From positions 7,384,501 through 7,448,500 of the forward strand of contig NC_081823.1 of NCBI RefSeq assembly GCF_030704535.1: a stretch of DNA of 64,000 bases. The letters run 5' to 3'. Positions 23,845-57,060 of the stretch are shown piece by piece. Each line of letters begins with the position of its first letter. The stretch's first letter is position 1. Source of the DNA: Vitis vinifera. Its lineage: Eukaryota > Streptophyta > Magnoliopsida > Vitales > Vitaceae. The translations under genes and the position numbers were made by a program. The notes beneath the pieces were generated by a model. That model did not search any database. It saw only the letters and a program-made list of their open reading frames with translations, and had not been told where the DNA came from.

Positions 23845-24079
23845 GAGGTCGGTGGACATGAGGACAGATATGAGAATGACGTGAGATGGGACGTAATCAT
23901 TCAAGAGATATCATGTGAGTAGAAATTAGAATGTAGTGAACTTTGCCCATGCATATGGAGTTGAATTTTAAGCTCAAATCCAACACCTGTCACCCATGTG
24001 GCACTCTCAATTGACATAATAGTGTTGTGTTTTGGACTTGGTGACGTGTGGAGGGACGTACGTATACATGAATGGGCTG
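23845..24079. promoter_or_regulatory. ACGT-rich non-coding block, copy 2
   Basis: It has GGTGGACATGAGGACAGATA, GACGTGAGATGGGACGTAAT and then GTGACGTGTGGAGGGACGTA about 160 bp further on, matching the blocks at 20600, 60940 and 63660. It lies 1.8 kb downstream of gene 1, and the palindrome-array element is inserted directly at its end. Confidence 0.5.
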
Positions 24080-24082
24080 TTT

Positions 24083-27000
24083 CAGGGACTTTTCTCAATA
24101 GTATAGTAATTTAAAAAAGTTATGCTTAAATTATTATAGTAGAAGAAGTTATTACAAATATATGGTAGTTTTTGCCACATAGGAGAAAGGAGAGAGGAGA
24201 TAGGAGAGAGGGTGAACGGATAATTTTTTTTAAAAAAGGGAACTCGTCTCTTGAAGAGACGAGTTCCATGAAAAAAAAATATATATTTTTTAAAAAAAAT
24301 TCCTATTTACTCAAGGGAACTCGTCTCTTGACGAGTTCCATGAAAAAAGACAAGGGAAAGACGAGTTCCTAGGGAAAAAAAAATATTTTTTTTAAAATAT
24401 ATTTTTTATTTAAAAAAAATCCTAAATTAAATTATAAAAAAAATTTCCTAAAGGGAACTCGTCTCTTCAAGAGACAAGTTCCCATGTAAAAAAATTTTTT
24501 TTTTTTTTAAAATATATATATTTAAAAAAAAAAAATTTCCTTTTTTTTTAATTTGGGATTTTTTTAAAATAAAAAATATATTTAAAAAAAAAATATTTTT
24601 TTCCCATGGGAACTCGTCTCTTCAAGAGACGAGTTCCCTTTAGCAATTTTGAGAAATTGTTTTTTTTTTTTTAATATATATATATTTAAAAAAAATATTT
24701 TTTTTACATGGGAACTCGTCTCTTGAAGAGACGAGTTCCCTTTGGAATTGTTTTTTTTTTTTTTTTTTATTTGGGATTTTTTTTTAAAAAAAATATTTTT
24801 TTTACATGGGAACTCGTCTCTTGAAGAGACGAGTTCCCTTTGGAATTGTTTTTTTTTTTTTTTTTTTTATTTGGGATTTTTTTTTTTTAAAAAATATTTT
24901 TTTCCTATGGGAACTCGTCTCTTGAAGAGACGAGTTCCCTTTAGGATTTTTTATTTATTTAAATATATATATTTTTTTTACATGGGAACTCGTCTCTTCA
25001 AGAGACGAGTTCCCTTTAGCAATTTTGAGAAATTGTTTTTTTTTTTTTTTTAATATATATATATTTAAAAAAAAATATTTTTTTTACATGAAGAGACGAG
25101 TTCCCTTTGGAATTGTTTTTTTTTTTTTATTTTTTTATTTTTTTATTTGGGATTTTTTTTAAATAAAAAATATATTTTAAAAAAAAATATTTTTTTTCCC
25201 ATGGGAACTCGTCTCTTGAGTTTCCTTTAGGAATTTTTTTTTTTTAAAATATATATATATTTTTAAAAAAAATATTATTTTTACATGGGAACTCCCTTTA
25301 GGAATTTTGAGGAATTGTTTTTTTTTTTTTTTAATATATATATTTTAAAAAAAAAATATTTTTTTTTACATGGGAACTCGTCTCTTGAAGAGACGAGTTC
25401 CCTTTGGAATTGTTTTTATTTTTTTATTTTTTTTATTTTTATTTTTATTTTTAATTTGGGATTTTTTTAAATAAAAAATATATTTAAAAAAAAAAAATTT
25501 CCCAAGGGAACTCAGGAAATTTTTATTTTTTTTAAATATATATATTTTTAAAAAAAATATTTTTTTTTTACATGGGAACTCATCTCTTCAAGAGACGAGT
25601 TCCTTTGAGGAATTGTTTTTTTTTTTTTTTTTTAATATATACATTTAAAAAAAAAAATATTTTTTTTTTACATGGGAACTCGTCTCTTCAAGAGACGAGT
25701 TCCCTTTGGAATTGTTTTTTTTTTTTTTTTTAATTTTTTAATTTGGGATTTTTTAAATAAAAAATATATTTTAAAGAAGAGACGAGTTCCTTTAGGATTT
25801 TTTTTAAATAAAAAATATATTTAAAAATTTTTTTTTTTCCCATGGGAACTCGTCTCTTGAGTTCCCTTAGGAAATTTTTTTTTTTAAATATATATATTTA
25901 AAAAAAAAAAATATTTTTAAAAAAAAAAAATTTTTTTTTACATGGGAACTCGTCTCTTCAAGAGACGAGTTCCCTTTAGGAATTTTGAGGAATTGTTTTT
26001 TTTTTTTTTAATATATATATTTTAATTAGGAATTTTTTTTTTAAATATATATATTTTTTTAAAAAAAATATTTTTTTTTACATGGGAACTCGTCTCTTGA
26101 AGAGACGAGTTCCCTTTGGAATTGTTTTTTTTTTATTTTTTTTTTATTTTTTATTTTTTTATTTGGGATTTTTTTAAATAAAAAATATATTTAAAAAAAA
26201 AAATATTTTTTTTCCCAAAGGGAACTCGTCTCTTCAAGAGACGAGTTCCCTTTGGAATTGTTTTTTTTTTTTTTTTATTTTTTATTTTTTATTTTTTATT
26301 TGGGATTTTTTTAAATAAAAAATATATTTAAAAAAAAAAATATTTTTTTCCCAAAGGGAACTCGTCTCTTCAAGAGACGAGTTCCCTTTGGAATTGTTTT
26401 TTTTTTTTTTTTTTTTTAAATTTGGGATTTTTTTAAATAAAAAATATATTTTAAAAAAAAAATATTTTTTTTCCCATGGGAACTCGTCTGAAGTAGGAAT
26501 TTTTTTTTAAATATATATATTTTAAAAAAAAATATTTTTTTTTACATGGGAACTCGTCTTTTTTTTTTTTTTTTTTTTTAATTTAGGATTTTTTTTAAAT
26601 AAAAAATATATTTTAAAAAAAATATATTTTTTTTCCCATGGGAACTCATCTCTTGAAGAGACGAGTTCCCTTTAGGAATTTTTTTTTTATGGGATTATTT
26701 TTAAATAAAAAATATATTTAAAAAAAATATATATTTTTTTTCCCATGGGAACTCGTCTCTTCAAGAGACGAGTTCCCTTTAGTTCCAAATTGTTTTTTTT
26801 TTTTTTTTTAATTTGTGAATTTTTTAAAAATATATATATTTTTTTTAATGGGAACTCGTCTCTTGAAGAGACGAGTTTCCTTGAAGAATTGTCTTTTTTT
26901 TTTTTTTTAATTTGAGAATTTTTTTACAAATATATATATATATTTTTTCATGGAACTCGTCTCCTGAAGAGACGAGTTCCCTTAAGTAAATGGGAAATTT

Positions 27001-27248
27001 TCTTAAAAAAATATATATATTTTTTTTCATGGAACTCGTCTCTTCAAGAGACGAGTTCCCTTTTTAAAAAAAATTTATCGATTCACCCTTTCTCCTATCT
27101 CCTCTCTCCTCTCTCTCACCTTCTCTCCTATCTCCTTTCTCCTCTCTCCTATGTGGCAAAAACTACCATATATTTGTAATAACTTCTTCTACTACAATAA
27201 TTTAAGCATAACTTTTTTAAATTACTATATTATTGAGAAAAGTCCCTG
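24083..27248. mobile_element. Palindrome-array TIR element, non-autonomous
   Basis: Both ends begin CAGGGACTTTTCTCAATA and are inverted repeats of each other, with about 2 differences in the first 104 bp and weaker purine-rich similarity beyond. The flanks are TTT on both sides (24080-24082, 27249-27251), and the related site near 54850 lacks the element, so a 3-bp target duplication is likely. The interior has no gene. It holds about 28 copies of a 31-bp palindrome, GGGAACTCGTCTCTT, a central G or C, then the exact complement. About two-thirds are full and the others partial. Spacers of about 60-100 bp alternate T-runs, ATTTGGGATTTTTTT-like words and A-runs. The open frames across it are low-complexity chance. 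The 3-bp duplication hints at CACTA or PIF-like mobilisation; the superfamily is not settled. High end identity suggests fairly recent movement. Confidence 0.85.
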
Positions 27249-28880
27249 TTTCCAGTTTCCAACTATGTCATTAAAGGAAGGTTCATGATTTTTTTGGAAC
27301 TTTAAAATGATATGACAAACACAGCGTAGCATTTTTCTTAAAAGGAAATCCATATAAAACAATTTATATTTCTAATTACCAAATTCTTCGTACCAATATT
27401 TAGAGTGTTTGATAATAATTATAAAAAATATTTATACTTTTTTTAACACCAAAATTTTTTTATCTTTCACATATAAAAAAGTTAAAAATACTTTCTAAAA
27501 CTTTAATACATTCATTTTCATTTGAAGTGGGTAATCGAGGCAATGTTTGTCTTTTTCTTTTTGAATTGTTGCTATCTTTGAGTTAATCCTTTGGAGCCTC
27601 ATTCTACAGTATGAAGAGAAGAACAAGTAAAAGTGGTCCTCCATCAGTAAGTTATTAACAATTACCCAATGGCAAGGTGGGAAATTTGATAGGATAAAAA
27701 AAAAAATCCTTAAATGGACATTTCATTCATTTGAATAACATGGAAATGAAATCCCATGAGTGAAATTTTAATTCTTCCTAATTAGGGGTATTTTAATTCC
27801 ATAGTATAACTTATTTTTAAAATTACTTTTCAAAAATTAAAAAATTAAAGACCTTTTTAGATAAGTTATTTTTAAAATTAATTTTTATTTTGATTTTGTA
27901 AAACATACAAATTTTAGATTCAATTTATATAATATAAATTAAGGGTGCTTTTGACAATGACTCTAGGAAGCCTTTTTTTTTTAATCCTAAAATGTGTTTT
28001 TGAAAAAAAAATAATTAGGTGTTTGACAAATTTTAGGAAACACTTTTAAAAATTTGAAGAGTGTGTTTGACATTGATTTTATAAAATAATTTTTTTTTTT
28101 ACATTTTTAATACTTGAAAAATAAAATTTTTATAGTGTTAGAAAAATTAAAAGTGCCTCTTAGAATCACTACCAAATGGGGTCGAAAAATTACTTATAAT
28201 GTTTTTTTAGACAAACACTTGATAGATGATTATCCTAAAAACACTTTTAAAGAAAATACTTTCACTAAAAACATTTCTGAGTAGTAACATTAATTGATTT
28301 ATTTTGTTAAAAATAAATAATAATAATTTCCAATACTATTTATATGATTTTATAAATATTATAAAAATATGGATATTAACATATTATAAAAGCATAATTA
28401 ATTTATTTTGTTAAAAATAAAGAATAATTATTCAAAATTAATAATTGCTAATACTATTCTATTTTAAATAAATATAAAAACAAACAAAATTTAAAATTTT
28501 AAGTTATAAATGAGCTAAAATTTTCAATATGTATGCATTTATTACTTAATTATGAAGATGACATTGTGAATTATTTTATTTGATCTATAATTAATTAATT
28601 AATTATTTAAATTTTGAATTATTCTTAAAAAATTATATATATGTTTTAAATTCTTTAATAAATCTTATCATTTTTAAAAGCAAAGTAAAATAAAGAATTG
28701 TTCAATACAAAGTCTTGTTTAATTTGAAATTCATTGTTAGGAAAGAAAAAAAAATTCAGAAGAACAGTTCTCTATTTTACTTTGCTTTTAAAAATTGTGT
28801 TTAAAGAACAACAACCATATAGTGATATAAATTTTTAAAAACAATTTTGTTTTTAAATCACACGACCAAATAGGATTTTA
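27249..28880. repeat. AT-rich segment duplicated elsewhere in the window
   Basis: Bases 27255-27370 match 54865-54970 (TTTCCAACTA-GT-ATTAAAG, TTAAAATGATA-GACA). Bases 27540-27690 match 55085-55215 (AAGTTATTA-CAAT-ACC, GTGGGAAATTT). Bases 28280-28620 match 50850-51070 (GATTTATTTTGTTAAAAATA, GAAGATGACATT, ATCTATAATTAATTAAT). It is non-coding and records the block duplication around the glycine-rich genes. Confidence 0.65.
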
Positions 28881-30469: not shown

Positions 30470-30720
30470 CACTATAAGAAAAAAGGGTAATAATGACGCT
30501 TTTTAGGCGTCAATAAATGTATACGATGACGCTTCTCGAAAGCGTCCTTTTCGCCTCTGTCAAGGAATGGGTGCAGGCAACCATGTCGCTTCTAGACAGC
30601 GTCATTGTTGATTGGTTTATATTAACACGTTAAAAAACGTCATTATTGATCTACCTATGTTAACACTTACACTAGCGCCAAGGAATGGCCAAAATATCAT
30701 TTGTCTATTTCGACGCTAAA
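30470..30720. repeat. CACTA left terminal and subterminal repeats
   Basis: After the terminal inverted repeat come short units on both strands: GACGCTTTTTAGGCGTC, GATGACGCTTCTCGAAAGCG, GTCGCTTCTAGACAGCGTCA, AACGTCATTATTGATC. They resemble the subterminal transposase-binding motifs known in CACTA elements. Confidence 0.7.
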
Positions 30721-31883
30721 AAAAGTGTCATCTTATGTGGATAATAATATTGAAAATCCCCTTGTTGAAATGATATATTTTGTATGTCCTGTTATATATA
30801 ATTTTGGCTGCATGATTATTTATAAAGTATTAAACAATAACTTCAATATTAATAACTACATCTTCCAAAAGAAATTGAATAAATTTGGGAATAATATAAT
30901 GATAAAGAACTAATGTCTACATAGTTAATTAATACGCAAATTTGTAAATGTATCAAAATATTTACAAGCATATTTTCCAACTTCAACATATATAAAACAA
31001 GTACACATGTACCAAAAAGCAAGGTCTCCAAATTCCTTATCAAAAATAATATTACAAGAAGAAGAAGAAGAAGCCAAAAGTATTTATAGCCAAAAGTATT
31101 TTTGTTTGGTAGCATATCCACTCCTGAACTTGAAATCTTTTACCTGTATACATTTAAAAAAAAAATAATAGAAGAAACAAATTATGTTTAGTTAATATAC
31201 ATGCAATGAAAGTTAAATCTAAATCTATAAATGGTCCATGAAAGAAGTGCAAATGAGAATAACTTGGTATTTAATGAGATGTTATGCTTCAATGAAGATG
31301 AAAAATTGTTTAATTTGATACTTGTTTATAAAATATTAAAATACTTTTTTAGTTCATTATTAAGTTAGAGGAAACAAGTTAGGCTTTCAATGGTATAAAT
31401 TCTACAATATGGAATGTAATATAATATTTTCTTATCTATGTCTAACATATCAAACTCATTTCTCAGAAATAAATATATGAATATACCAATAGGTATGGTT
31501 TATAATTAGTTTCAATCATAAATCATCATATCTAGTAATATAAGACATTTAATATTAACCATTTGCAAATGCCTTAATTTCTTCTTACAACTTTCCTATA
31601 TTACCAAATTTAGTTAACTAATAACATTCCATAAGGAAAAAAAGAGTATTAAACTAAAAATTAAAAGAGCATAACCAAGGCAATAGAAACCTACAAATCA
31701 TTGGTTAAATGTCATAATAACAACCATTCTAAAACTTGCCTTTATTTTCAATTCCAAAATTATAACCCAAATATAATAATTAACCCTACACAAAAAAAAG
31801 CTCTCTACCATCCCTCCATCCAACAACAACCTGTTGATGCAACAACAATAACTTCTCCATACAACAATAACAATTTCTCCATG

Positions 31884-31927
31884 TAACAACAACAACAACA
31901 ACAATAACAATAACAATAACAATAACA
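31884..31927. repeat. AAC/AATAAC microsatellite
   Basis: About six AAC units are followed by AATAAC-type units, inside the 3' part of the CACTA element. Several shorter ACA/ATA-rich tracts follow to about 32125. Open frames here encode poly-Leu or Asn-rich runs and are not genes. Confidence 0.8.
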
Positions 31928-32388
31928 TTGATGATCAATGGTGATAATTATATTAGTAATAATTTGATTTGTTTAGTCCAAACATATAACAATAACAACT
32001 TCTCTATGCAACAACAACAATAATAATGACAACATTGATGATCATGATATAATAATTTGATTTATTGAGTTCACAAATTATATGCTTCTTCTCCATACAA
32101 CAATAACAAAAATAACTTCTCCATGTAACAACATTGGTGATGATGTAATAATTTGATTTGTTATATTGAAATAGTTTATGTATAAAACTATTATATTCTA
32201 TCACTATGGAGGAAAAAATTACTTATCATGAGATGAGAACTTATGAGAATCGTCAAAATGTGATCTACAACTCTTACTGGACTGAAATGAGGGCATCTGC
32301 ATACATAAGATGGTAAATTAAAAAAATTAGTCCATTCAAGACTTCATTAATAATGAAAATCAAGCATTTTAGATGTTAATTTATACCT

Positions 32389-35300
32389 TCAGGCATGGGT
32401 AAGAATCAATTGAGTTGCCAACATAACCCACTCAGATCGTACTTCATTAAGCTCAACTTCACTATACGATTTTTTCCCTTTAAACTAATAATTAATTGTA
32501 CATACATGATGATTAGTTAAGTTAACAAAAAATTACTAAAGTATAGAAACTAATAAAATTTATTAATGAGTATATACATTTGTGGATAGGAGGCTTGGAT
32601 CAACAATTATATCTTTCATGTATCTCATCACATAATAACCACACTCCACACTTCCTAGTTGTCCTGGGCACTATAGGCACACATATGAATTATGGTACCA
32701 TAAAAACATTAATATTATGATGTTTTATGTCATTATTATCTAAGTGACAAAACATAAAACCATATTCAAATTTTAGGGTTGATATAAGTGGTCATATGAT
32801 ATATCTTACTCTAACCAAGTAACTTACCACTACTTTTACCCATGTCGGCTCCCTCTTTGATGATCTTTGTTTCTCTGGTGGATGAATTCGTAGTGCCCTA
32901 CATGGAAAAGAAAATTAACATTTTAGATACTATGCACTATATTCAAGTATGGAAATGAAGACACTTACATGTTAACAATTTCCTTAAGATCATCACATGG
33001 TTGCTTTTGCATCGGATCAAGGTAGTACGCAGTCATTGTCCTCATATCCAATGCCACCAAGACCCAGTGGAAACTATAATAGTACATTAGATATTATTTA
33101 GTAATTAGCATTGATTAAGCTATTTAACATTAAAAAAAAACTTAATATTTTTCATAACTTACTCAGGGTTATATGGAATAAAAATGTAGTCAGCACGCTT
33201 TGCATGCATTAAACGATTTGCAATCAACCTTGACCTATTTTCCTTTGTTGTCTCACCCATTCCAGCTTTAGAGACTAAAGCTGGATTGATAAAAGCAAAT
33301 CGTTCGGTGAGCCTTGCATTACTTAGCTTTTTCTGTAGGTGCCTGTTTAAATTCCACATACCTTGATAAGAAATGACCATTTTACTTTTATATATATATA
33401 AATTAACACACATTAGCAAGTTATAAAATTATTTACCATATATAATATATGACACAATTAGCCGACACTTTCTTAAATGAAATTATCATATCCATGTCTT
33501 CTTTCATAAGGAAGGTCTTAAAACTCTCGCCAAATACATCATTTGGGACCTCCACACCTTGTGCTTTCCCCTCATTTAGCATGAGACCTACTAATGCATC
33601 AAAATTGTTGATATCTTGAGGGTTTTCACCAATTTTCAAGTCATTTTCTGTTGTTTTTTGTCTTTTCCCTTTGTGAGATCCCTATAAAAGAAAGCACCAT
33701 GTTTTCAAATGATATACATATCTTTATAAACTATTTCAAATGAAAATAACACACCTTAATGAATTTAGTACTCAAATTGACTAAATGGGTTGGCCATAAA
33801 ACTTGGTAGCCCACTACCGCTCCAATTGTTGTAGCTTGTCCAGGAATGGGAATAGGAAGTGGTGTATTTGACTTATAGGGAGCATCCAAAACAACTAGGT
33901 AGTTGGGCCCACAATCCATTACAATTATTCCACCAGCCACTGTATTTTCTCTGGTCCCTACTGCTAACTCACATTTTCTTGCCTTCAAAAGTAAATTAAA
34001 TTGTTAATTTCAATATAAAAAAGAATCAATAAATGAAGTTTAAAGTGCATTGACTATGTTAGGGCTATATTTAAGACATAAAGTTACATATTTTATAAGT
34101 AATAGTTGTAGTGGAATAGAATATTACTAGTAGTAATTATGCTGTAATAGAATCTACCTAAAATGTAAGTATCAATCTAACAAAAATAAAAGCAATTGGA
34201 AGAAATTATTTATGAAAATTATCTAGGAATTTGTGACAATTACGTCATTGAACTAGGAAATGTAAACTAAAAATAACACACCTTCATGTGTGGTTCTATT
34301 TTCACAGGTAAGGTCTCCTCTTCAACTTTACGAATTGGTTTCTCCACTACTTCTGGTAGAAGCAACAGTTTTGATTTCATGTTGGAACTACTCACATCGG
34401 ATTGTGGTGTAGCAACTCCTATCTGAGATAGTCTCGCTAACACATCAGCCTCAAACTTAACTTGACGTTCTTGAGTTGCTTTTAAAATATCCCTCACAAC
34501 ACGTTCTGACATACTATTGAAATATCATCCAGGCGTGTAGTGCTTCCCTTTAGCTCGAACCCAACCAGTATACTCAGGAGTACCTAGTGCTTGAGAAAGT
34601 ATGTCATTGCTCCCACTATAGCTTATGCCACTCTCTTGAGACTCTTTTATCAATTCATCCTAAAACAAAAGGAAGTTATGAAGTTAACTTTCAAATAAGT
34701 AAAACCAAATAAGGTGTTTAAAGATGTGATTTTTGGGTACAAAATGTCTACTTACTATTTTTTCCATTACCGGTAGGACCACATCATCATAGTTGCCATC
34801 TTTTTTTTGCATTGCCCTCTTCCAAAGTAAACTTCTATCAATGCTTTCTATGGAGCCAGCTTCAATCATCTAATAGAAATGGAAAATTAAAGATAGTTAT
34901 TAGATGACACATGTGGTTTTATTTCTATTTTTTTGTCAGAAAAGAAACAATTAAGAAACCCATATAAAATATTCCTTCATTACTTATACAATCATATAAA
35001 ATTAAACCACAATAAGAACTAACAAAAACTTACCATCTCTTCTTCAAGTCCAGCATACCCTTTTCTACTTAGATGATGATTATATATATGCTTCTTTCTT
35101 CTCTGTTTTTGTACTTCCCTATATTCCTAAAAATTAAAATGGATGCTTAGTATATATATGTGGATGCATGTAGTATGTTTAATGTTAATTGTATTTGTAC
35201 CTGGAATTTTTCAGACAACCTAGTTTTCACAAAAATATTCCAATCTTCATCATCGATAAAATGATATTCAGCTGGTGGTTTCTTAAGAAGCTCTGGCTGA

Positions 35301-35759
35301 TCTTTGAAAGGAAGAATATGTTTCACAGTCAACGTGTTCTTAAAAGATCGAAAACATTTTCCCAATGTAAGCATACAATTCCTTCTACTTTTCTTGTCTA
35401 ATGTAAAAGCAATCTACAAATTATAAAGTCATTAGTTTCTCAAAATTTGAAAGAAATATAGAGATTGTAGAAAACTTATTTATGTTAAAAAAAAAAGTAA
35501 CCTCAATAGAGTCCCACAACTTATCCTTCAATTGTTCAGGGACATCTCGCCATGTGTTATATCTGATTGGTACCATCGTACGTGCCAATACACCTAAGTA
35601 GCTTGTTAGGTGCACAGAAGATTCTCCTACATAGATACCATCAACATTGTACTTTATGACCAACTTTATCCCTCTATTCCTATTCCTTATAATCATGGAT
35701 TTCCTTGTTGTCCCTCTATATTTTTTTTGTGAAGGGGTTTTCTCTTCCTTTGAATCCAT
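32389..35759 (-). CDS. CACTA second gene: Transposase_24-like with C-terminal Ulp1 protease domain
   Basis: This is a multi-exon minus-strand gene of the CACTA element. The first exon (from 35759, MDSKEEKTPSQKKYRGTTRK) and those at about 35412-35200 (LGKCFRSFKNTL, FIDDEDWNIFVKTRLSEKFQ), 35130-35030, 34870-34750 and 34660-34280 fit the plant Ptta/En-Spm transposase family. Later exons at about 33988-33760, 33680-33430 and 33390-33160 lead to a C48 (Ulp1-like) cysteine protease core. There the His is in FHWVLVALD (about 33075), the Asp in AYYLDPM, the Gln in CPGQLGSVE and the nucleophile Cys in ECGYYVMRYM (about 32650-32620). The last exon ends QLILTHA, stop at 32389. At least one in-frame stop lies in the exon near 34535. 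Exon borders are approximate. Such fusions are known in plant CACTA elements; the role of the protease in transposition is unclear. Confidence 0.72.
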
Positions 35760-36210
35760 GCCTATAACACATCAATGAGAAATGATAAGTATACCCATTA
35801 ATTGCAAGTAAAATTGAATTTTTTATAACATGAACTCATATTAGTAACATGAACATACTAGGAACATTTTACATGCTAGATAACAATATTCACATGTTGT
35901 CATGAAATATTTAAAAATAATAATAATAAAAACTTACTAGAAGATCCTCACCAAACTTTTTTCTTATGGAACTAGAAATCATAAGCTTTGAGCTGAGACA
36001 AATTGATATCCTTGTATTACCCTTTAGATCACTCTGAGATATGTGTATAATAATAATCATGAAATAGGGAATCAATAAATTTAGAGACATGATGAATTTA
36101 ATCCACTTAGAAAATAAATAAGCTATTTACTGAAATGCAGAATTTCAATATTAACAAGTTAATGGGATAGTTACAACCTTCATAACAAAACAACAAGGTC
36201 ATAAATTTAG

Positions 36211-39200
36211 TTACATAGAAGATTTGTTATCAATCCAGAATCCCTCACAGTCTCCTCGAATGCAAATGACATCAGAGTCATCCATTGTATCAAATGATTC
36301 AACTTGTGCCAAGGTGGTAATGAGAGGATGGTGTTCAATAGAATTATCCATGAAGTCATCAGAATCCTTTGCTGAAAATGAGAAGTCCCTTTCAGGAGTT
36401 GACAAAACAACTGACCATCTTGGATCAAGTTGGTTTTGTACATAGAATACTTGCTTGGCTTGGGAGGCTAAAATAAATGGATCTGATTTATGAGCCATCT
36501 TAGTGAAGTCAACTAATGTCAGCCCAAACTCATCAACTTTGATGCCGCTCTTATTATCAACCCAATTACATTTGAAAACTGGAATCCTAAACATGGTATA
36601 ATCAAGATCCCATATCTCAGTAATAATACCATAGAAACATAGCTCACTAAATACTGGATTCTTATCCTTGGCACTAGAAATTTGCATTGTTGTTGCTACA
36701 ATGCTAACTCCACTATTCTGGGTAACTCGTAACTCATCACGGTCTTTTGTGTTGTACTGACACCCATTTATAACATAGCCATGATACTTGGCCACGTAGT
36801 GGGTAGGACCATGTGCCATCCATCTTAAGGTTTCAGATATAGGTTCTTTGTCAGCAATGACAACTTCTACCTGTTTGAATGGACCATAGTTATTAATATT
36901 TTTTATGATAAGTGCTAAGAATGGTGCAATTTTTAGAATAAATTCAATACCTTTTTTCGCAACCAATGAGTGAATGTTCGCATGTGTTCTTCTTGTAGCC
37001 ACTTTTGTCTCTTAGATTGACGAGGATTGTTCAATTTCAACCATTTCATGTGTTCTCTATAAGATATGTATAAGAAAGTAACAATAAGTTTCCAAAATTA
37101 GTTTAAGTAATCTACACATAAAATCAAAATAGTTGACCCTTACTCGATATAAGGTTGGATGATAGTTGTATTTTCCAACACATAATGATGTGCTTGCAAC
37201 AAAAAATTACAATCAACTTCGGTGATATGACCTCCAGGAATAGGCGCCCCAACTTTATGGTCAACATTAGTGCTACTAGGAACTCCAATTGCATCCACAT
37301 TTGATAAGTACTCTGTACAAAATTCAATAGCTTCCTCTGCAATGTAGCATTCAACAATGCAACCTTCAGGGTGGTTACGGTTTCACACATAACCCTTTAA
37401 TACTTTCATGAACCTTTCAAATGGGTACATCCATCTAAAATAAACCGGTCCACAAAGTCTCACCTCTCTAACAAGATGAACCGTTAAATGAATCATGATA
37501 TCAAAGAAGGATGGCGGAAAGTACTTTTCAAGCAAGCGCAATGTCACAACAAGTTCATTTTGTAACTTATCCAATGTAGACACATCAACCACCTTCTTAC
37601 ATAAAGCATTGAAAAAAAGGCTCAATCTAGCAATAGCATGTCGTACATGCTTTGGCAAAAGTGATCGCAATGCCACTGGTAACAATTGTTGCATCAGTGT
37701 ATGATAATCATGAGACTTCAGGCCATAAAGGTTCAAATCTTCCATTGACACAAGATTTCTAAAGTTTGAGCAATACCCTTCAGGAACCTTTAACTCAGCT
37801 AAAGTTTGACAAAATACTTTCTTCTCCTTTCTAGACAATGTATAACATGCAAGCGGAAGGTAAGTTCGATTCGATTCAAACCTTAGTGCCAGTTTACACC
37901 TTAAGCCCATGTCCATAAGGTCCAGACGAGAATTGAGTCCATCTTTTGTCTTCCCTGGGATGTTAAGTAATGTACCAATGATGCTTTCACAAATATTTTT
38001 CTCAATGTGCATTACATCCAAATTATGACGAACATGCAAATATCTCCAATACTCAAGTTCAAAGAATATAGACTTTTTCTTCCAACAATTGGTATAAGTC
38101 ACATTGGATTTTTCATGTCTTCCCCTTTTTTTCCCCCATGAATTACAAATGACATTCATTTTCAATAGTATTTCCTCTCCACTTAATGGTTGTGGAGGTG
38201 ATCGAAACTCCTGCTCACCATTGAATGCCTTTCTATGTTTTCTAAAAGGATGATTGCATGGAAGAAAACGTCTGTGGCCTGTAAATGAGTTCTTTCTCCC
38301 ATGCTTTAACCTATGTGAATAGGTTTCCGGTCCATATATTGGACAAGCAAAATATCCTTTGACTATGCAACCAGATAAGTTTCCATATGCAGGAAAGTCA
38401 TTTATTATCCATAATAGAACAACCCTTAATGTAAAGACCCCTCTTTGATATGCATCATAAGCTTCTACCCCTATCTCCCACAAGGTTTTAAGGTCCTCAA
38501 TCAATGGTGCTAAATAGATATCTATGTCATTTCCAGGTTGTTGTGGACCCGATATTAACAAAGATAACATCATAAATTTTCTCTTCATGTACAACCACGG
38601 TGGAAGGTTATAAGTGATCATGACAACTAGCCAACAACTATACCTGCTGCTCAAAGAACTATGGGGATTTATGCCATCTGCTGAAATGACAAGTCTAAGG
38701 TTTCTAGGTTCTGCAGCAAAATCAGGCCATCTATGGTCAATTACCTTCCATGACGGCGAGTCGGATGGATGACGCATTTTTCCATCAAATTCTCCACCTT
38801 CTGCATGCCATATGAGGTCTTTTGCAATTTTTGAGGACCGAAACATTCTTTTAAATCGTGGGATAGGTGGAAAATACCACATTACTTTAGCAGGAACTCC
38901 TTTACTCTTTTTGCTTCCTCTTCTATTCACCTTCCACCTTGAAGCTCCACATGTAGGACATGAAGATGCATCTTTTAACTCATTCCTAAAAAGTATGCAA
39001 TCATTGGGACATGCATGTATTTTTTCATATTCCATTTCCAATGCATTCAATGTTTTTTTTGCTTCATACATAGACAATGGCAACTCATTGTTTACAGGCA
39101 ACATATCACCAAGTAAGCTTAATAGCTCGGAGAAGCTTTTATCAGACCACCCATATCTTCTTTTCAGATTGTATAATTTAACTAAAGTAGATAATTTGGT

Positions 39201-39611
39201 GAAGTTTTTGCAATCGAGATACAAAGGTTTTTCAGCATCTTCAAGCAACCTTTCAAATAATTTTGGATTAGCCTTACAATCATCTTATGCAGCTTCAACC
39301 ATTTCTACTGTATGATCCACATTACCAATATGAATTCTATCAAAACATTCAACCCTTGTAGTTAGGGGTCCACTACTTAGAGCTGCCTCCCCATGCCAAA
39401 ACCAAGTATGGTAACTTTGGTCAATTCCATAAAAGAATAGGTGTTCTCTAATCTTTTGAGGAGTATTGAAGATCAAATTTCCACACTATAGACATGGGCA
39501 TTTGATGGAGTTTTGATTTGCAGAATTTTGAACTGCAAATGAAATGAAATTTTCAACCCCATCCTCATAGTCTTTTGATCTTCTATCTTTTGACATCCAG
39601 GAACGATTCAT
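36211..39611 (-). pseudogene. CACTA TNP2-type transposase, decayed
   Basis: It starts MNRSWMSKDRRSKDYEDGVE at 39611, with the transposase-associated N-terminal Cys motif (KCPC...CGN). The TNP2 core (Transposase_21; GDMLPVNNELPLSMYEAKK, CPNDCILFRNE, DGINPH, ISGPQQPGNDIDIYLAPLIE, LDVMHIEKN) follows, then DUF4218 (FPPSFFDIMIHLTVHL, PFERFMK) and a C-terminal DUF4216-like part (VSIVATTMQISSAKDKNP, YVQNQLDPRWSVVL). Two introns, about 37139-37056 and 36945-36872, restore the reading. Three in-frame stops interrupt it: after CPCL (about 39485), after VEAA (about 39285) and after KGYV (about 37383). The last falls where relatives have Arg, a CGA to TGA change typical of methylated CpG decay. Otherwise it is full length, so the decay is recent. 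Confidence 0.88.
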
Positions 39612-42368
39612 TTGCCTATAATAGTTGAACACAATTCCTATATAGCAAACATAAGCAAACAATGGAAATGGAAAAGACTTAGAAAGTTACCTTTAGAAAA
39701 CACTCAAAACTTTCAGTTTCTCATTTGTGACATCCAAAATTTCTTTTAAACTTTCTATGGACAAACAATTAGGATTCAAGTGCAATAAAAAATTTGAACC
39801 TCATCCTTAATAAAAAAAATGATTAACAATATGACAATAGAACCTTTTGATGCATGTTTTTATGCCTTTTAACATGTCCATCATCCAAAATCAGGTAGTT
39901 GTTCCTATCCCATGTAGGAATACATAATCCCTATGTGTTAATTGCCAATATACTCAATTTCATTTTAAAGAAATTTTGGCAGCATTTCCCCATAGTTCTC
40001 CAAGTACACAAAATGAACAAGGTATAATATGTGACCTTGTTCAAATATGCACCCAAAGAACAAGAGGAAATACTACCAAAATTTCTAAAAAGTGAATTAA
40101 GCACAAGCAATTAACTTCATAGATATTATGTTTTCCTACACTGTCCAATCGGACAATTCAAACATCATTGCAAAAAAAATATCTTTATCACATTCTAGAC
40201 AATTTAAAAGTTGTCAACTTGAAAGTGGCTTAGGTAAAACCTTTTTCACCTTTGACAACTTAAATGTCTTTAGTATGTAATAAGAGAAACTTTTATCTTA
40301 CAATGATAGTTGAATGGGAACTCTAAGGTTTCATGCATGCATGTTTGATTAAAATTAAAACACAATTACTTATTGAATAATCTAATAATTATAAAACACC
40401 TAAAGTTGTTCCATAATTATTGCTATATTTCATCATTAAACAAGATTATTATGAGAAAGCATACGTATGGCCCATGATTTGCGAATCAAGTCACACCAGT
40501 CTATGTCATAGCCTTGGGTCAAAATTTGGGCCTTGGTATCAAACTAAGCTAGGGAATAACTCGTACAATTCAGGTACTCAATAAGATTTAAACAAAATTT
40601 AAAATAACGCTTCCATTATATTCTTTTGACCACCCAAAGTAAAAATGGTATTATGATTAAAATATGTTGGTTTGTATAAGGAAAAATAGTGTACCTTCCT
40701 CACTCTGTCTTTGTCTCAAGTCTTGCATCACACACCTCTCGTAGTCCAATGTAGGTCACTGTCTCTTAAAATATGTATATGCAAAACAAATAATAAATAA
40801 AGATATAAAATAAATCCATTAGTAGATATTAACAAATAAATACAAAATAAATTAAAATAAGAAATAAACTAAGAAGAAAAAACATATAAGTAAGAAAAAA
40901 AAGATTTTCACATGTGCAACAATGGTTAGATATTTTTAAAAATTTATAAAATTATTAAAATCAAACTATTTTAGTTATTATTTTTTTAAAATGGTAATTA
41001 ATACTCATATAAAATAAAATATATGCATGATGAGAAAGGTAAGAAGATTATTCCTTGTGCCCTTTTTCATTTGAGATTATGACTTTTGGTGATGACCTAA
41101 TGGTGGGTGAACCGTGAACCACACTATCTGACCCGGGTCAAGTCCTTAGGGCAAGAAAGATGACTGCAAGATGGGTAGAACTTAAACGAATGAGATAGAA
41201 AAGTCTGGTCTAAATTAAGGTGGCTTAACAATCCGTAATCATCTTGGTTAGGTTGTATCATATTGTGAAAGAGAAGTTACAGGCTAGGTCTTCAGCATCC
41301 AGCAATTCCACCCTTTGATTTTTCCAACATGTTGCACCATCTAATAATAATACCTATGATCCTATACCTTAGTTTTGATTCCTTATGTATACAAAGTATA
41401 TATGGTTACACTACATTAAAGTTATTTTTTTTCTCTAAAAAGTAATTAGTGTAAATTTTAAAAGTAGGCTAATATTCATTTTTTTTTTCACTTCTTATTT
41501 TTTGTTTTGAAAATAGAAAATAGTAACAACTCTTATACAAAATATTTTACTATTTTTTGTTTTTAAAATAGAAAGTTAGAAATTGCATTTTAAAAGCAAT
41601 ATTCTATTTCAATCCACACAAATGATACAAGTTTTGAAATATTCCATTACCATATTTTGAGTAATATTTTTAAAGGGTTAATTTAATTCATTTCCCCTCA
41701 AGATTTGACTAAATATAATGGCACCCGATAATATGAAATTTGAAGAAGTCCATATACTCTTCAAGTCTATAATTAGAAGTTCCTAGTAAGTTGTCACCCA
41801 TACTAATGAAATTTCTTGAGTCAACATTAATCTCGAACCTTTTTGCTACCTTCATTACCTATTTTGCCCCTTTACCACCTACTTAGTCCTCTTTACTTTG
41901 ACCATGTGTGTTTCTCTTACTTGCCCCTCTACTTTTATGAAAGAAGCATATAGAAGAAGCCCATTCAAGTTTTTAATTTTTCTTTGTTTGGATCATTCCT
42001 TGAAACCTTCTAAAATTTCCCTTGTACTTAGCCTCAACATTACAGGTCCAATAAAACTCTTATAAATAAAATTAAAAGTGTAATAAATATTATAAAATTA
42101 TTTTATTAAAAAAATTAATATATATATATATATTGTAATTATTAAATTATATAAAATCTTATTCAATAATAATATTGTGATATTTAATTATAATATGTTT
42201 AATTTTAAAATATATTTAATATTAAAATTATGATATATTTAATTAATATATTAGTGATATTAAAAACTTTTTACAATTTAATTAAATAAAAAAATTATTT
42301 ACATATAAAATAATTATAATTAATTTGTTGTTTAAAGGATTATTTTAATATTTTGTGTATATAAAAAC

Positions 42369-42372
<4 letters not shown>
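39612..42372. other. CACTA upstream non-coding region
   Basis: This lies 5' of the transposase inside the element. It is A/T-rich with mixed-composition islands (39850-40280, 41090-41350) in which I recognise nothing. It should include the transposase promoter, but no TATA box can be chosen with confidence. Confidence 0.45.

Positions 42373-42422
<50 letters not shown>
42373..42422. repeat. TA microsatellite
   Basis: About 24 uninterrupted TA units. Pure (TA)n tracts are highly mutable and prone to form cruciforms. Confidence 0.95.
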
Positions 42423-42424
<2 letters not shown>

Positions 42425-42493
42425 CATAAGGGTTTTGATTTCAACAAGGTATATTTTATTAAGTAAAGAAAGAAGGGCAGCTTCCTTGAACTT

Positions 42494-43044
42494 TCAATCC
42501 CAACTTGCAGATTTTACACCTTCGGCATCACAGGTATATTGAGGAGGACAAGGAAAAGTGCCATCAACGTATCCTAAGAGGTCGTTGCTAATTAAAACAG
42601 GGAGGAATTTATCTTTCCAGAGAAGATAGTTGGTGGAATCAAGTTTGATTGGTAATATTCGGTGCAGCAAGTAGAGTGGAAGAAGGCAGTGAATTCGAAA
42701 TAAAAACTGATAAGAATGTGACAAAGAAGAAGGAAGAACAAAAGGATATGATGGTGTAGAAAAATAAGAAGAAGAAAAGAATAGGGTGAAGGAATTTATT
42801 TGAGGAGAATAGGAGATGACAAAGTTGATACCTGAGTCAAGAAGGGAGGAAGAGCAGTGGTGGAGATGACAGATGGAGGTCCGGCAAGAGTGCTAGGAGG
42901 CAAGGACTTAAAAACCTGGGTCAACGACGATGCCGCTAAGGACGAAACTTGGCTGGGAATATCAATATGTGCAGCAGACAACAGAATAGATGATGTTTCA
43001 ATGGATGAGGAAATTTCAGCAGTGGAAGATGGTGTCGCAGCCAT
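42494..43044 (-). mobile_element. Copia-type gag-like fragment inside the CACTA element (fossil)
   Basis: Minus-strand translation gives a Ser/Thr/Pro-rich start (MAATPSSTAEISSS) and then a piece matching the N-terminal part of Ty1/copia gag proteins (KLDSTNYLLWKDKFLPVL, then LLGYVDGTFPCPP). Only this N-terminal part is present; there are no LTRs, protease or pol, so it is a broken remnant carried by the CACTA element. It could have been picked up from a gag-derived host gene instead. Confidence 0.6.
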
Positions 43045-43189
43045 GGCAGAGGAGATTAAGAGAGGATGCAGCAGGAAAGAAATTGCTAGAACAATGACAG
43101 CGGCAGGTTTAGAATCCTTTCAACACACCAAATTTAGAGTCAGACTTGACAGCCTTTCAAAGACGCGGAGGCATAGAATATTCTTGATT

Positions 43190-43369
43190 AAAATATGTGA
43201 GATCATAAGCACCAAGGAAATCAACGACCCCACCACAGCTATTGCCACTCTCCGCCTCTTCTTCCACGACTGCATGGTCGAAGGCTACGACACCTCAGTC
43301 CTCATCTTCTCCAACTCCTTCAACACCGCCCAGCACGACGCCGACATCAACCTCTCCCTCCCAGGCAAT
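43190..43369 (+). pseudogene. Captured fragment of a class III peroxidase gene
   Basis: About 60 residues read KICEIISTKEINDPTTA, then ATLRLFFHDCMVEGYDTSVL, then DADINLSLPGN. This is the distal-haem region of secreted plant peroxidases, with the distal Arg and His of RLFFHDC. The Cys usual in VEGCDASV is replaced by Tyr here, and no signal peptide, proximal His region or other exons are present, so it cannot be an active enzyme. It lies inside the CACTA element, opposite in strand to the transposase genes, and is best explained as gene-fragment capture (transduplication). The open frame extends back to 42857 only because it overlaps the gag-like piece on the other strand. Confidence 0.8.
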
Positions 43370-44479
43370 ACTGTATCAATACATCCAGATTGTACGAGTC
43401 TTGCCTCTCTAGTCATCAGTCATCATTCATGACTTTGTAGGAGGGATGAGGTAGACCAAACAAAGCCTTCGGATGGGCTCAAATCTAGCCACATCCAAGT
43501 TCCAAATTCCTATCCCCTAAAGTAAAATTTAAATTATTATTATTATTTACATTCTGTAGAAGTTTCTTCTTTAAATGAATTTTATTTTTGAGAAAACTTG
43601 CTATGGAAAGTCTGCATCTTGATTTCAACCGAGACAAACCCATATCTTTTGGACCTGGTGCCTCTCCCAATCCTTGACTGCCCAACAACTAAAATTCAAA
43701 CCCAAGCCCACCAAAGAAAATTTTAAAACACGTCATGCCTTTGCCAGTTGTTCCCCTCTCAATACCATTTAAAAATCCCCCATTCTGTAGCTTTCTCAAC
43801 TGCTGCAGTCGAACCTGTCTTCTCCTTGGTGTACGAACACGACACGTCCATACCTACAGGCGGTAGAGGCTACACCTCCTTTCCCACGCCCTTGTGCTGG
43901 TGCGTGAGCCACCCACCACATTACCCTCAAGCTCCATCCCGATCACCATGCTGGCTACTACATCTCCATGGCATTACACTAGGCAAAAACAAGGCGACAC
44001 TTCCCACCACAACTAAAAGGAGAAGCTGAAATTATACCTATTACAACTTGCAGCGTACCATACAACAACAAGAACAAAAAATGCACTGTATTTATTTGGG
44101 ATACCATTACCCTGATTTTCTCCTCCCAAAATAATTTCCCCATCTATGAAACAATAATATTAGATTTTTGGAACAATGAAAACCCTTCCATTTGTCTTCA
44201 TTTGTACTAATCTATTCAAGTTTGAGGAAAACAACATTACTTGAGAAAGAGATTTACCTGTAACTATGATGCTCTGTAGTAGATTTTGACAATGGTAACC
44301 TCCCATGCATGGAAGTTAGACATGGCCATTCCAACGGATTAGGGCATTTTAGTGGTGGACTTAGTGAGAGCTATAGGGTTTCGGGGTTTCTTCAGTTCTG
44401 AAATTGTGGAGGGAATGTCTGGCGGGTACTTGTAGAAAGGGAAAAACATTTAATTAATATATATATATATATACTATTA

Positions 44480-44729
44480 TTTAATGTCACCTAATATAAG
44501 TGCCATGAAATATCACAACTATGACACTGCTATAAAGTGTCATGGAATAACCAGTTATTCTTATAAGTGCCACAACAAGCAATGATACTTTAAATAAGCG
44601 CCATGAAATAAAAAAGCTAATATAAAAAATGACCCTTTTGAAAAAACGCCATTGTATATCCAAATATAATGATACTTTATGAAAGCGCCAATGATTAAAG
44701 CGTCATAATTTTCTATTTTTGTAGTAGTG
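44480..44729. repeat. CACTA right subterminal repeats and terminal repeat
   Basis: Repeated short units AGTGCCATGAAATA, AAGCGCCATGAAATA, AAAGTGTCATGGAATA and AAAGCGCCAATGATTAAAGC approach the terminal repeat ending TAGTAGTG at 44729. They mirror the GACGCTT/GCGTCA units at the left end. Confidence 0.7.
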
Positions 44730-54754: not shown

Positions 54755-54900
54755 CTTTGTGGCACTCTCAATTGAGGATGTTCTTTTTTGGATCGACTTG
54801 TTGACGTGAGGACTGAGGAGGGACGTATACATGCACTGTATAAGACATGGTTGGCTAATTCCAATTTCCAACTACGTTATTAAAGTGAGTGATTTTGGAA
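54755..54900. promoter_or_regulatory. ACGT-rich non-coding block, copy 3 (partial) and empty site
   Basis: It has GGCACTCTCAATTGAGGATG and GAGGAGGGACGTATACATG, matching 24001-24075 in order. Directly after it, GGCTAATTCCAATTTCCAAC corresponds to the joined flanks of the palindrome-array element (GGCTGTTT at 24075-24082, CCAGTTTCCAAC from 27252). So it shows the site without the insertion. Confidence 0.6.
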
Positions 54901-55217
54901 CCTTAAAATGATACGACAGACATAGTATAGCATTTTTTGTTAGAAGGATCGAAATCCATACATTCTATGACTTGTGAAATATGTTGGAGAGGGCTACCTA
55001 TTAATATTACTGCTAATATATAGTGTATATATGGTCCCCACCAGTACTTCAATTCTCTGAAAAAATGAAATCTAGCAAAACCACGTGAGGAAAAGCTTTC
55101 TCACTGTAGAACTTATCCAAACTTTTTCTTTGTTGCTATATTTGGTTTTTATCCTCCATCAACAAGTTATTAGCAATCAACCATTGGCTAAGTGGGAAAT
55201 TTACTAGGTTAAAAAAT

Positions 55218-57060
55218 CACTGCTACAAAAAATACATTCAATGACGGTCATTTCCTTGGCGCTGGTAAGAAACGTCAAGTTACGGGGATTTTTGATAATT
55301 TAAAATTAATTTTTTAAAATACAGTATAATAAAAACTATTTTCAAATCTATGATACTTTTTTGTCACTTTTAAAAGTGTATTTTAAAAAGACACTTTACA
55401 TCATTTTTATATAAATGATATACGTTTAAAACAATTGAATTTACATTGAAGGTGTCTCTGGAAGAGACAAGAGACACCTTCCATAATTTTTATATCAATA
55501 ACACATGTTAAAAATTTTGAATTTACATTAAAAGTGTCTCTTCAAGAGACACCTTTTATAATTTTACAAAATCAAATTTATATTAAAAGTGTCTTTTAAA
55601 TAGATATTTTCACAGTTTTCATATCAGTTGCATAATAAAAAATTGAATTTATACTAAAAATGTATTCTTAAGATATAATTTTTTACAATTTTACAAAATT
55701 AAATTTATATTAAAAGTGTATCTTGAATAGACACCTTCAATAATTCTTGCATCAGTCATCTATTGAAATAATTGAATTTATACTAAAAGTGCATTTTTAA
55801 AAAACACATTCCATAATTTCATAAAATTAAATTTATATTGAAAGATTATTCGTTCAAGAGACACTTTTAGTATAAATTTAATTTTTTTGATAGGTGATTA
55901 ATATAAAAATTGTGGAAATTATTTCTTCAAAAGACACATTTAGTATAAATTTAATTTTGTGGAATTGAATAGATTCCTTCAATGTAAATTCAATTTTTTT
56001 CACTGTGTAACTGATATGAAAATTATCAAAGATGTCTCTTCTAGAGACACCTTTAGTATTAATTTGATTTTATGGTATTGTGGAAATGATATTTCTTTAA
56101 TATAAATTCAATTTTTTTTAACGTGTATGACTAATAAAAAAATTATGAAAAAATATCTTTTGAAGAAACACCTTTAACATATATTTAATTTTATGGAATT
56201 ATAAAGTATGTCTCTTCAAGAGACACCTTTAGTGTAATTCATTTTTTTTGGGGAGAATTATGTTTTGGGGGTAGATGGGCTCTCAAATTAACAAAAGGTC
56301 CATATAACTCTTCAAATTGAGCCCAAGACCCAATGAAAGTATGGAAATTGAGTTGAAGGATATCATTCTTCAGTATTTACAAAAATACCCTTTGTTGATT
56401 TTGAAAAAAAAATTAATATTTTTGAAAAATACTTTTATTTAATTTAATATTTTTTATTTTATTTAATATTTAAAAAAATACTTTTATGTAATTTAATATT
56501 TTTAAAATACTTTTATTTAATTTAATAATTTTAAAAAATAAATTTATTTAATTTAATATTTTAAAAAAATATTTTAAAAAAAATATTTTAAAAAAAATAT
56601 TTAATTTAATATTTTTTTAAATACTTTAATTTAATTTAATATTTTTGAAAAAAAATTTATTTAATTTAATATTTTTAAAAACTACTTTTATTTAATTTAG
56701 TATTTTTGAAAAAAAAAATTATTTAACTTAATTTTATAAAATATTTTATATGTGTTTTTAAAGGGTATATTTGTCCGTTACTATTTCATATCCTTCAACT
56801 CAATTTGAAGAGTTACATGGACCCTTTATTAATTTGGGGCCCATCTACCCCCAAAAGATAATTCTCCCTTTTTTTTTTTTTTAACATTTATGGTTGATAT
56901 GAAAAATATATAAGGTATTTCTTTAAGAAACACATTTCAAAGTGGGAAAAAAATGCCGTAGATTTGAAATTATTTTTCAAACTACCATAGTTTAAGAATT
57001 ATTTTTTAAAGTACCGTTTTTTAAGAATTATTTTTTAAAATAGCTGTATAAGTTAAAAAA
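55218..57060. mobile_element. CACTA-type element remnant with small hairpins
   Basis: It starts CACTGCTACAAAAAATACAT and reaches CAATGACGG, like the ends of the 14.3-kb CACTA element. The next 1 kb has about five hairpins of the type GTGTCTCTTCAAGAGACACC (about 55450, 55530, 55850, 56030, 56210) between stretches similar to AATTTATATTAAAAGTG. No matching right terminal repeat is found. Similarity to the host block seen at 61730-61810 resumes after about 57060 (GGACTCA-AAAGAGTCTT), so the right end is lost or altered. No coding sequence. A MITE is nested in it at 56251-56868. Confidence 0.6.
56251..56868. mobile_element. MITE with about 100-bp inverted ends and an internal minisatellite
   Basis: Both ends read GGGAGAATTATSTTTTGGGG, followed by GTAGATGGG, then AACTCTTCAAATTGAG, in inverted orientation with few differences. 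The interior, about 56395-56760, is a degenerate tandem array of about 30-40 bp built on TTTATTTAATTTAATATTTT with A-rich linkers. There is no coding capacity. Mutator-like ends are possible but no clear target duplication can be read because the flanks are T-runs. Confidence 0.75.

Follow-up and report, generated by a model that had tools for sequence, protein, structure and literature searches.

The palindrome-rich element at 24086–27245 of the window (the 64,000-nucleotide stretch of Vitis vinifera DNA analysed here, contig NC_081823.1, positions 7,384,501–7,448,500) is well supported as a non-autonomous member of a MuDR-type MULE family whose non-coding array forms its interior, and the origin of this odd stretch is largely resolved. 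Taken as a whole, our sequence-based account, which we hold to be probable, is that of a MuDR-type MULE array of putative docking sites for a dimeric transposon protein. A first-pass annotation had described a gene-free mobile element with near-identical ends, made mostly of palindromes; that observation is confirmed by the data below, and its interpretation is partly supported.

The element is 3,160 bp long, bounded by a left terminal inverted repeat (TIR; 24086–24215, forward strand, beginning GGACTTTTCTCAATAGTA) and a right one (27116–27245, reverse strand). Including the outermost bases, the inverted arms 24083–24215 and 27116–27248 run to 133 nt at 96% complementarity; ~130 bp of these belong to the transposon proper, the outermost CAG/CTG of the stretch being part of the target-site duplication. 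This duplication is present in a 10/9 bp form, with CTGTTTCCAG on the right (27246–27255, 10 bp) and CTGTTTCAG on the left (24077–24085), where one base has been lost. No coding frame beyond low-complexity ORFs is present between the borders. A diverged duplicate of both flanks, lacking the element in the manner of an empty site, lies at 54758–54960 (forward strand; 73% and 76% identity over two pieces).

The array is built on a core, GTCTCTTSAAGAGAC. At ≤2 mismatches the window has 24 matches to it, where chance predicts 0.04 for the whole window, and 19 of the 24 fall within the array. Arm remnants bring the count to 29 units, of which 19 have their full length and 10 are truncated, close to the initial estimate of about 28 copies with about 19 full; the description of these as perfect 31-bp palindromes holds for only 12 units, with 14 exact at 29 bp. 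The copy at 24608–24638 is one exact 31-bp example and contains the conserved 29-bp word GGAACTCGTCTCTTSAAGAGACGAGTTCC. The 29-bp palindrome is itself symmetric, and unit orientation can be read from the spacers. Units of ~100–136 bp are repeated into two inverted arms of unequal size: the first four units form a short left arm (24238–24486, reverse strand) with the ATG side of the spacer pointing inward, and the other 25 form a long right arm of opposite orientation (24600–27062, forward strand), mostly ~70–140 bp apart. Among 100 listed places in the genome, five two-armed arrays are found, and in all five the left units are all in + and the right units all in − orientation (88 units). The array is thus of fold-back design, with composite inverted arms of repeated modules in each of these five.

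Searching the genome from which the window comes (495.6 Mb in 21 contigs; places are given as contig:position) recovers 499 occurrences of the exact 31-mer and 302 further occurrences of the 29-mer followed by ATGTA, with none for the reversed controls of either. These two sets are mutually exclusive, so the genome has at least 801 exact 29-bp palindromes. Palindrome counts and median spacing put the arrays at very roughly 0.04% of the genome. A 56-bp TIR pattern (≤3 mismatches) finds 86 + 70 = 156 similar ends (100 listed; reversed control 0), and 117 distinct listed TIR ends resolve into 38 paired elements of 1.4–14.3 kb. Leaving aside the window element, eight of ten elements with both ends in hand carry a perfect 10-bp duplication. 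A further element, on C18 (L047), keeps nine of the ten bases and then has a small junction deletion; the one copy of the ten tested without any target-site duplication is L038 (C5:1989965–1991444). Over 57 bp one flank of L038 is an inverted copy of the other, as though an inverted duplication had accompanied its insertion. An assembly artefact can be ruled out, because dozens of loci carry the array, eight of which have perfect duplications of their own.

Some copies have histories of their own. At C5:2092845, 2200731 and 2308610 (L032, L025 and L031) one element recurs at ~108-kb steps; since the 1.5-kb right flanks at these steps are identical, a ~108-kb tandem segmental duplication carrying the element is suggested. 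L023 (C8:1430027–1433178) has a symmetric subfamily variant of the palindrome with arms GTCTTTT…AAAAGAC, and its array is bordered by unrelated sequence that we take to be LTR-like.

The window element lacks a transposase, and the family connection to one comes from longer relatives. Scoring 150 of 578 candidate matches to PF03108 (the MuDR DNA-binding domain) genome-wide places this domain inside two of the 38 TIR pairs of the window's type (type 1; expected 0.045, P 0.001). These are two of the four long pairs. In C9:1138168–1152452 the domain sits in an open frame of 585 aa, with the near TIR 4.4 kb away; in C14:23441667–23454804 the frame is 116 aa and the distance 4.3 kb. The C9 pair has its array at the right end (L030). 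From the layout of these two elements we predicted, before seeing the letters, that arrays would lie 2.6–4.4 kb upstream of other copies of that transposase, and both stretches inspected agree. Beside C9:1848438 (860-aa frame), C9:1844700–1845099 contains three palindromes in full and a fourth that is cut; beside C13:7422691, C13:7426300–7426499 holds one full and one cut. As arrays make up only ~0.04% of the genome (the very rough estimate above), two out of two is therefore not luck. At C7:151623 (860-aa frame) a type-1 palindrome lies 10.2 kb downstream, a distance comparable to that of the far TIR in the C9 pair (9.85 kb). The two TIR pairs and the two predicted arrays together argue that the palindrome arrays are the non-coding arrays of MuDR-type MULEs, placed upstream of the transposase in relatives that have one, and open transposase frames of 854 to 860 aa exist among the family copies.

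The link is not universal. Fifteen of the scored PF03108 matches (150 of 578 candidates) cover domain range 4–67; all four of these at 47.9 bits are linked to type-1 sequence, as are five of the 15 overall. Nine of the 15 were inspected for type-1 sequence, the four unlinked ones by the ATGTA kind, and no palindrome of that kind lies within 10 kb of C3:205725, C3:19005991, C5:6255427 or C6:8416993. The other two long TIR pairs, on C3 and C8, contain no PF03108 match among the 150 of 578 scored; the 10.7-kb C3 pair has a non-coding middle free of palindromes, and in the 9.8-kb C8 pair unrelated sequence adjoins the array. For the MULE domain PF10551, 150 of 791 candidates were scored, and all of these matches are more than 20 kb away from the type-1 TIR ends; the thirty top MULE-domain loci have neither a palindrome nor a second TIR end, with one weak TIR-like match (L052).

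A second, type-2 palindrome array at 55297–56249 of the window uses the same 15-bp core in a different setting, its word AGGTGTCTCTTSAAGAGACACCT being found near another MULE transposase subgroup. The type-1 word (29 bp) reads GGAACTC-GTCTCTTSAAGAGAC-GAGTTCC, and the type-2 word (23 bp) AGGT-GTCTCTTSAAGAGAC-ACCT. The type-2 palindrome occurs 203 times genome-wide (reversed control 0), and a search with the window copy gave 365 candidates, of which the 40 scored include copies that match their own reverse strand and are, like type 1, fold-back. PF03108 lies within 10 kb of six of 25 listed type-2 clusters (expected 0.154, P 1.6e-8), and in all six the palindromes are downstream of the domain, 4.5–6.9 kb away. 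The six linked matches constitute every PF03108 match of range 6–67 on contigs 1–4, where the palindrome list is complete; ten further matches of this range lie on other contigs, outside the comparison. PF10551 is present near one type-2 array, C3:10484459. With match range (4–67 versus 6–67) serving as a crude subgroup mark only, palindrome type appears to follow transposase subgroup, some of the related transposases tested having no palindrome of the ATGTA kind within 10 kb. With two outer arms for two transposase subgroups around a single core, it looks as if transposon protein and palindrome word co-evolve.

Beside the type-2 array, a CACTG end at 55218 was at first assumed to be the end of the type-2 element and was dropped after the genome search, because 28 of 39 other scored copies start at query 69–82 (55286–55299) and none before 68; it is a lone CACTA-type end (CACTGCTACAAAAAA) adjoining the array, for which no partner end was found in the window. 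On the other side, at 56251–56868, lies a ~0.6-kb element whose inverted ends are GGGAGAATTAT…/…ATAATTCTCCC and which has an internal 30-bp A/T tandem repeat; it has apparently inserted in the array and is a second short inverted-end element with a repeat interior.

After dropping nine overlapping loci, we aligned 336 type-1 sites (≤7 mismatches) at 38 loci and took position and arm-change counts from 330 sites (≤5 mismatches). Positions 2–30 are almost invariant whereas 1 and 31 are loose: the consensus base is found in 226/330 sites at position 1, 315/330 at position 2 and 241/330 at position 31, giving a sharp conservation edge at 29 bp rather than 31 bp. This edge bears on the idea that the array is a neutral by-product, in which hairpin-prone, A/T-flanked units grow by replication slippage and their constancy reflects young copies from few sources. 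Unit number and spacing do vary, A/T tracts are long, and 10 of the 29 window units are truncated, several by deletions inside the hairpin; young copies also exist, C15:3294473 and C15:3300875 having identical 56-bp ends. Such a process does not sit easily with so abrupt a boundary, or with palindromes having diverged less than TIRs. Transitions at non-CpG C/G positions affect 93/3,300 palindrome sites (2.8%) versus 43/720 in TIRs (6.0%; 40 TIR ends, two duplicate loci dropped), and at CpG 51/1,320 versus 21/80, the latter TIR figure representing a single, partly subfamily-specific site. Nor does it account readily for palindrome type tracking transposase subgroup, with a common 15-bp core and differing outer arms, and we regard a neutral origin as unlikely. 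The contrast between palindromes (4.7% of sites differing) and their 8-bp flanks (35–37%) may itself be partly mutational, low-complexity spacers slipping easily.

The arrays could instead act in folded form, serving as RNA hairpins (for example as small-RNA sources, of which maize Mu killer is an instance) or as extruded cruciforms. The chain of hairpins envisaged in the first-pass annotation is physically possible: each palindrome has a strong predicted fold (31-mer as single-stranded DNA, −15.3 kcal/mol, z −7.2), and read-through of the inverted arms would yield long double-stranded RNA. The changes seen in the arms are not compensatory overall, however. Pairs 2–15 change on one side, with 212 single changes and five compensatory doubles against 4.1 expected in the 330 sites, and no Rfam family reaches its gathering score. 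Pair 13/19 is the exception, with four symmetric doubles in three loci versus ~0.9 expected (by arithmetic from column counts), a small result that counts against the reading of the palindrome as a DNA word. On balance, a function for the folded form seems improbable. Local homogenization, whereby gene conversion or rolling amplification within each element keeps the arms identical (the process first proposed), is very unlikely. Across 31 elements, the within count excluding two segmental duplicates, palindromes differ at 1.315 of 28 sites within an element (1,894 pairs) and 1.308 between elements (5,922 pairs), a result at least equalled in 66 of 100 permutations, so there is no within-element excess of likeness. 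The 8-bp flanks differ slightly less within elements than between them (35.0% versus 37.4%; 0/100 permutations), from which it follows that the arrays probably grow locally. The sharp 29-bp edge, chance-level arm covariation and absence of within-element excess thus indicate that what is mainly kept is a 29-bp DNA word, one and the same across the whole family, and neither a hairpin nor a locally homogenized repeat. The idea that the palindrome arm derives from the TIR tip (GGGACTTTTCTC) by copying was also rejected, the likeness not being significant (p 0.13 and 0.05).

Placement among known elements follows from the ends, the duplications and the linked domain. MULE target-site duplications are standardly 8–11 bp (PMC6446971), and the family has 10-bp duplications, long TIRs and PF03108 in its transposase-bearing relatives. 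A CACTA element with subterminal sites of the TNPA type can practically be discounted. Its TNPA-bound arrays of subterminal motifs, which co-vary with the binding protein, are functionally analogous, but CACTA elements belong to another superfamily with 3-bp duplications and CACTA ends (PMC2613891); here the 10-bp duplications and ends GGACTTTTC refute membership, and the linked transposase domain is MuDR-type. The window does contain one CACTA element, of ~14.3 kb (30470–44729; ends CACTATAAG…/…TTTTTGTAGTAGTG, 3-bp duplication GTT), encoding Transposase_21 and DUF4218 at 37383–39248 and DUF4216 at 36211–37002, all on the reverse strand.

Among MULEs, a functional parallel is with the VANDAL elements, in which arrays of VANC motifs in non-coding DNA aid mobilization or counter silencing (PMC5735166, PMC10398659). 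Both systems have non-coding tandem arrays of a short word that expand and contract, the word varying among related families, and the unrelated AT9TSD1 also bears VANC6 motifs (PMC5735166, PMC10398659). VANC words are 8–9 bp and of single orientation, however, whereas the grape word is a 29-bp palindrome, and VANDALs have degenerate TIRs and DUF1985 proteins, in contrast to the long grape TIRs (PMC5735166, PMC10398659). DUF1985 gave 91 matches (150 of 157 candidates scored); once 15 neighbouring pieces had been dropped, 76 places were compared with the 117 type-1 TIR ends, and the nearest of them is 19,013 bp away. Ulp1 is likewise absent from type-1 TIR intervals among the matches listed. With neither domain listed in these intervals and with long TIRs, we do not claim VANDAL membership. 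VANDAL-like MULEs do exist elsewhere in this genome (for example, C7:16886642 and C6:3979620): DUF1985 is found within 12 kb of 16 of the 150 scored MULE-domain matches, several with Ulp1 between, and an 829-aa open frame is common to nine scored MULE-domain matches.

Fold-back MULEs are already known, FARE of Arabidopsis being one of this type. Like the grape family, these elements have inverted arms composed of repeated modules, vary in copy number and have rare relatives with a MULE transposase; published accounts of these elements do not, as far as they extend here, report the modules as arrays of one family-wide symmetric 29-bp word. In grapevine itself, MuDR-type MULEs have been grouped as 'Mutavine' families (Benjak 2008, PMC2528002), similar in their long TIRs in many families, MuDR-type transposases and many deleted copies, and different in that only 9-nt duplications are reported for them, versus 10 bp here. 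The main text of that survey has neither 'palindrom' nor 'subterminal' by word search (PMC2528002). Titles and opening lines of abstracts yielded no description of such palindrome arrays in a MULE, and GAGACGAGTTCCC was not found in the literature searched by sequence; it is quite possible that Repbase has an entry for the bare repeat. The initial statement that no named plant element has this design must accordingly be narrowed, as the superfamily is now assigned and transposase-bearing relatives carry the same array.

Returning to the reading that we prefer, the conserved word is a putative DNA-binding site, in the manner of the VANDAL/VANC arrays. The autonomous element would encode a dimeric DNA-binding protein, either the transposase itself or an accessory protein, for which the two-fold-symmetric 29-bp word is the putative docking site. 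This protein would occupy the many sites lying among A/T tracts, which are probably poor in nucleosomes, and its loading may help excision or keep the element from silencing. Copies rich in intact sites would be mobilized best, holding the word constant while spacers drift; the sister transposase subgroup would use a different outer arm around the shared 15-bp core. We think it possible, if somewhat short of probable, that two sister MuDR-type MULE subgroups have their own symmetric words, each read by a dimeric protein through the core plus a subgroup-specific outer arm, providing targeting or anti-silencing independent of DUF1985/VANC, with non-autonomous copies reduced to little more than docking sites.

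This also identifies a repeat that appears to defy explanation when only the raw sequence is read. How transposons recognize their own DNA while escaping silencing is, in our judgement, an open question outside the Arabidopsis VANDALs. The grape family offers many natural candidate binding-site arrays and a pair of related words, one for each of two transposase subgroups, and its open frames of up to 860 aa make word and protein directly testable.
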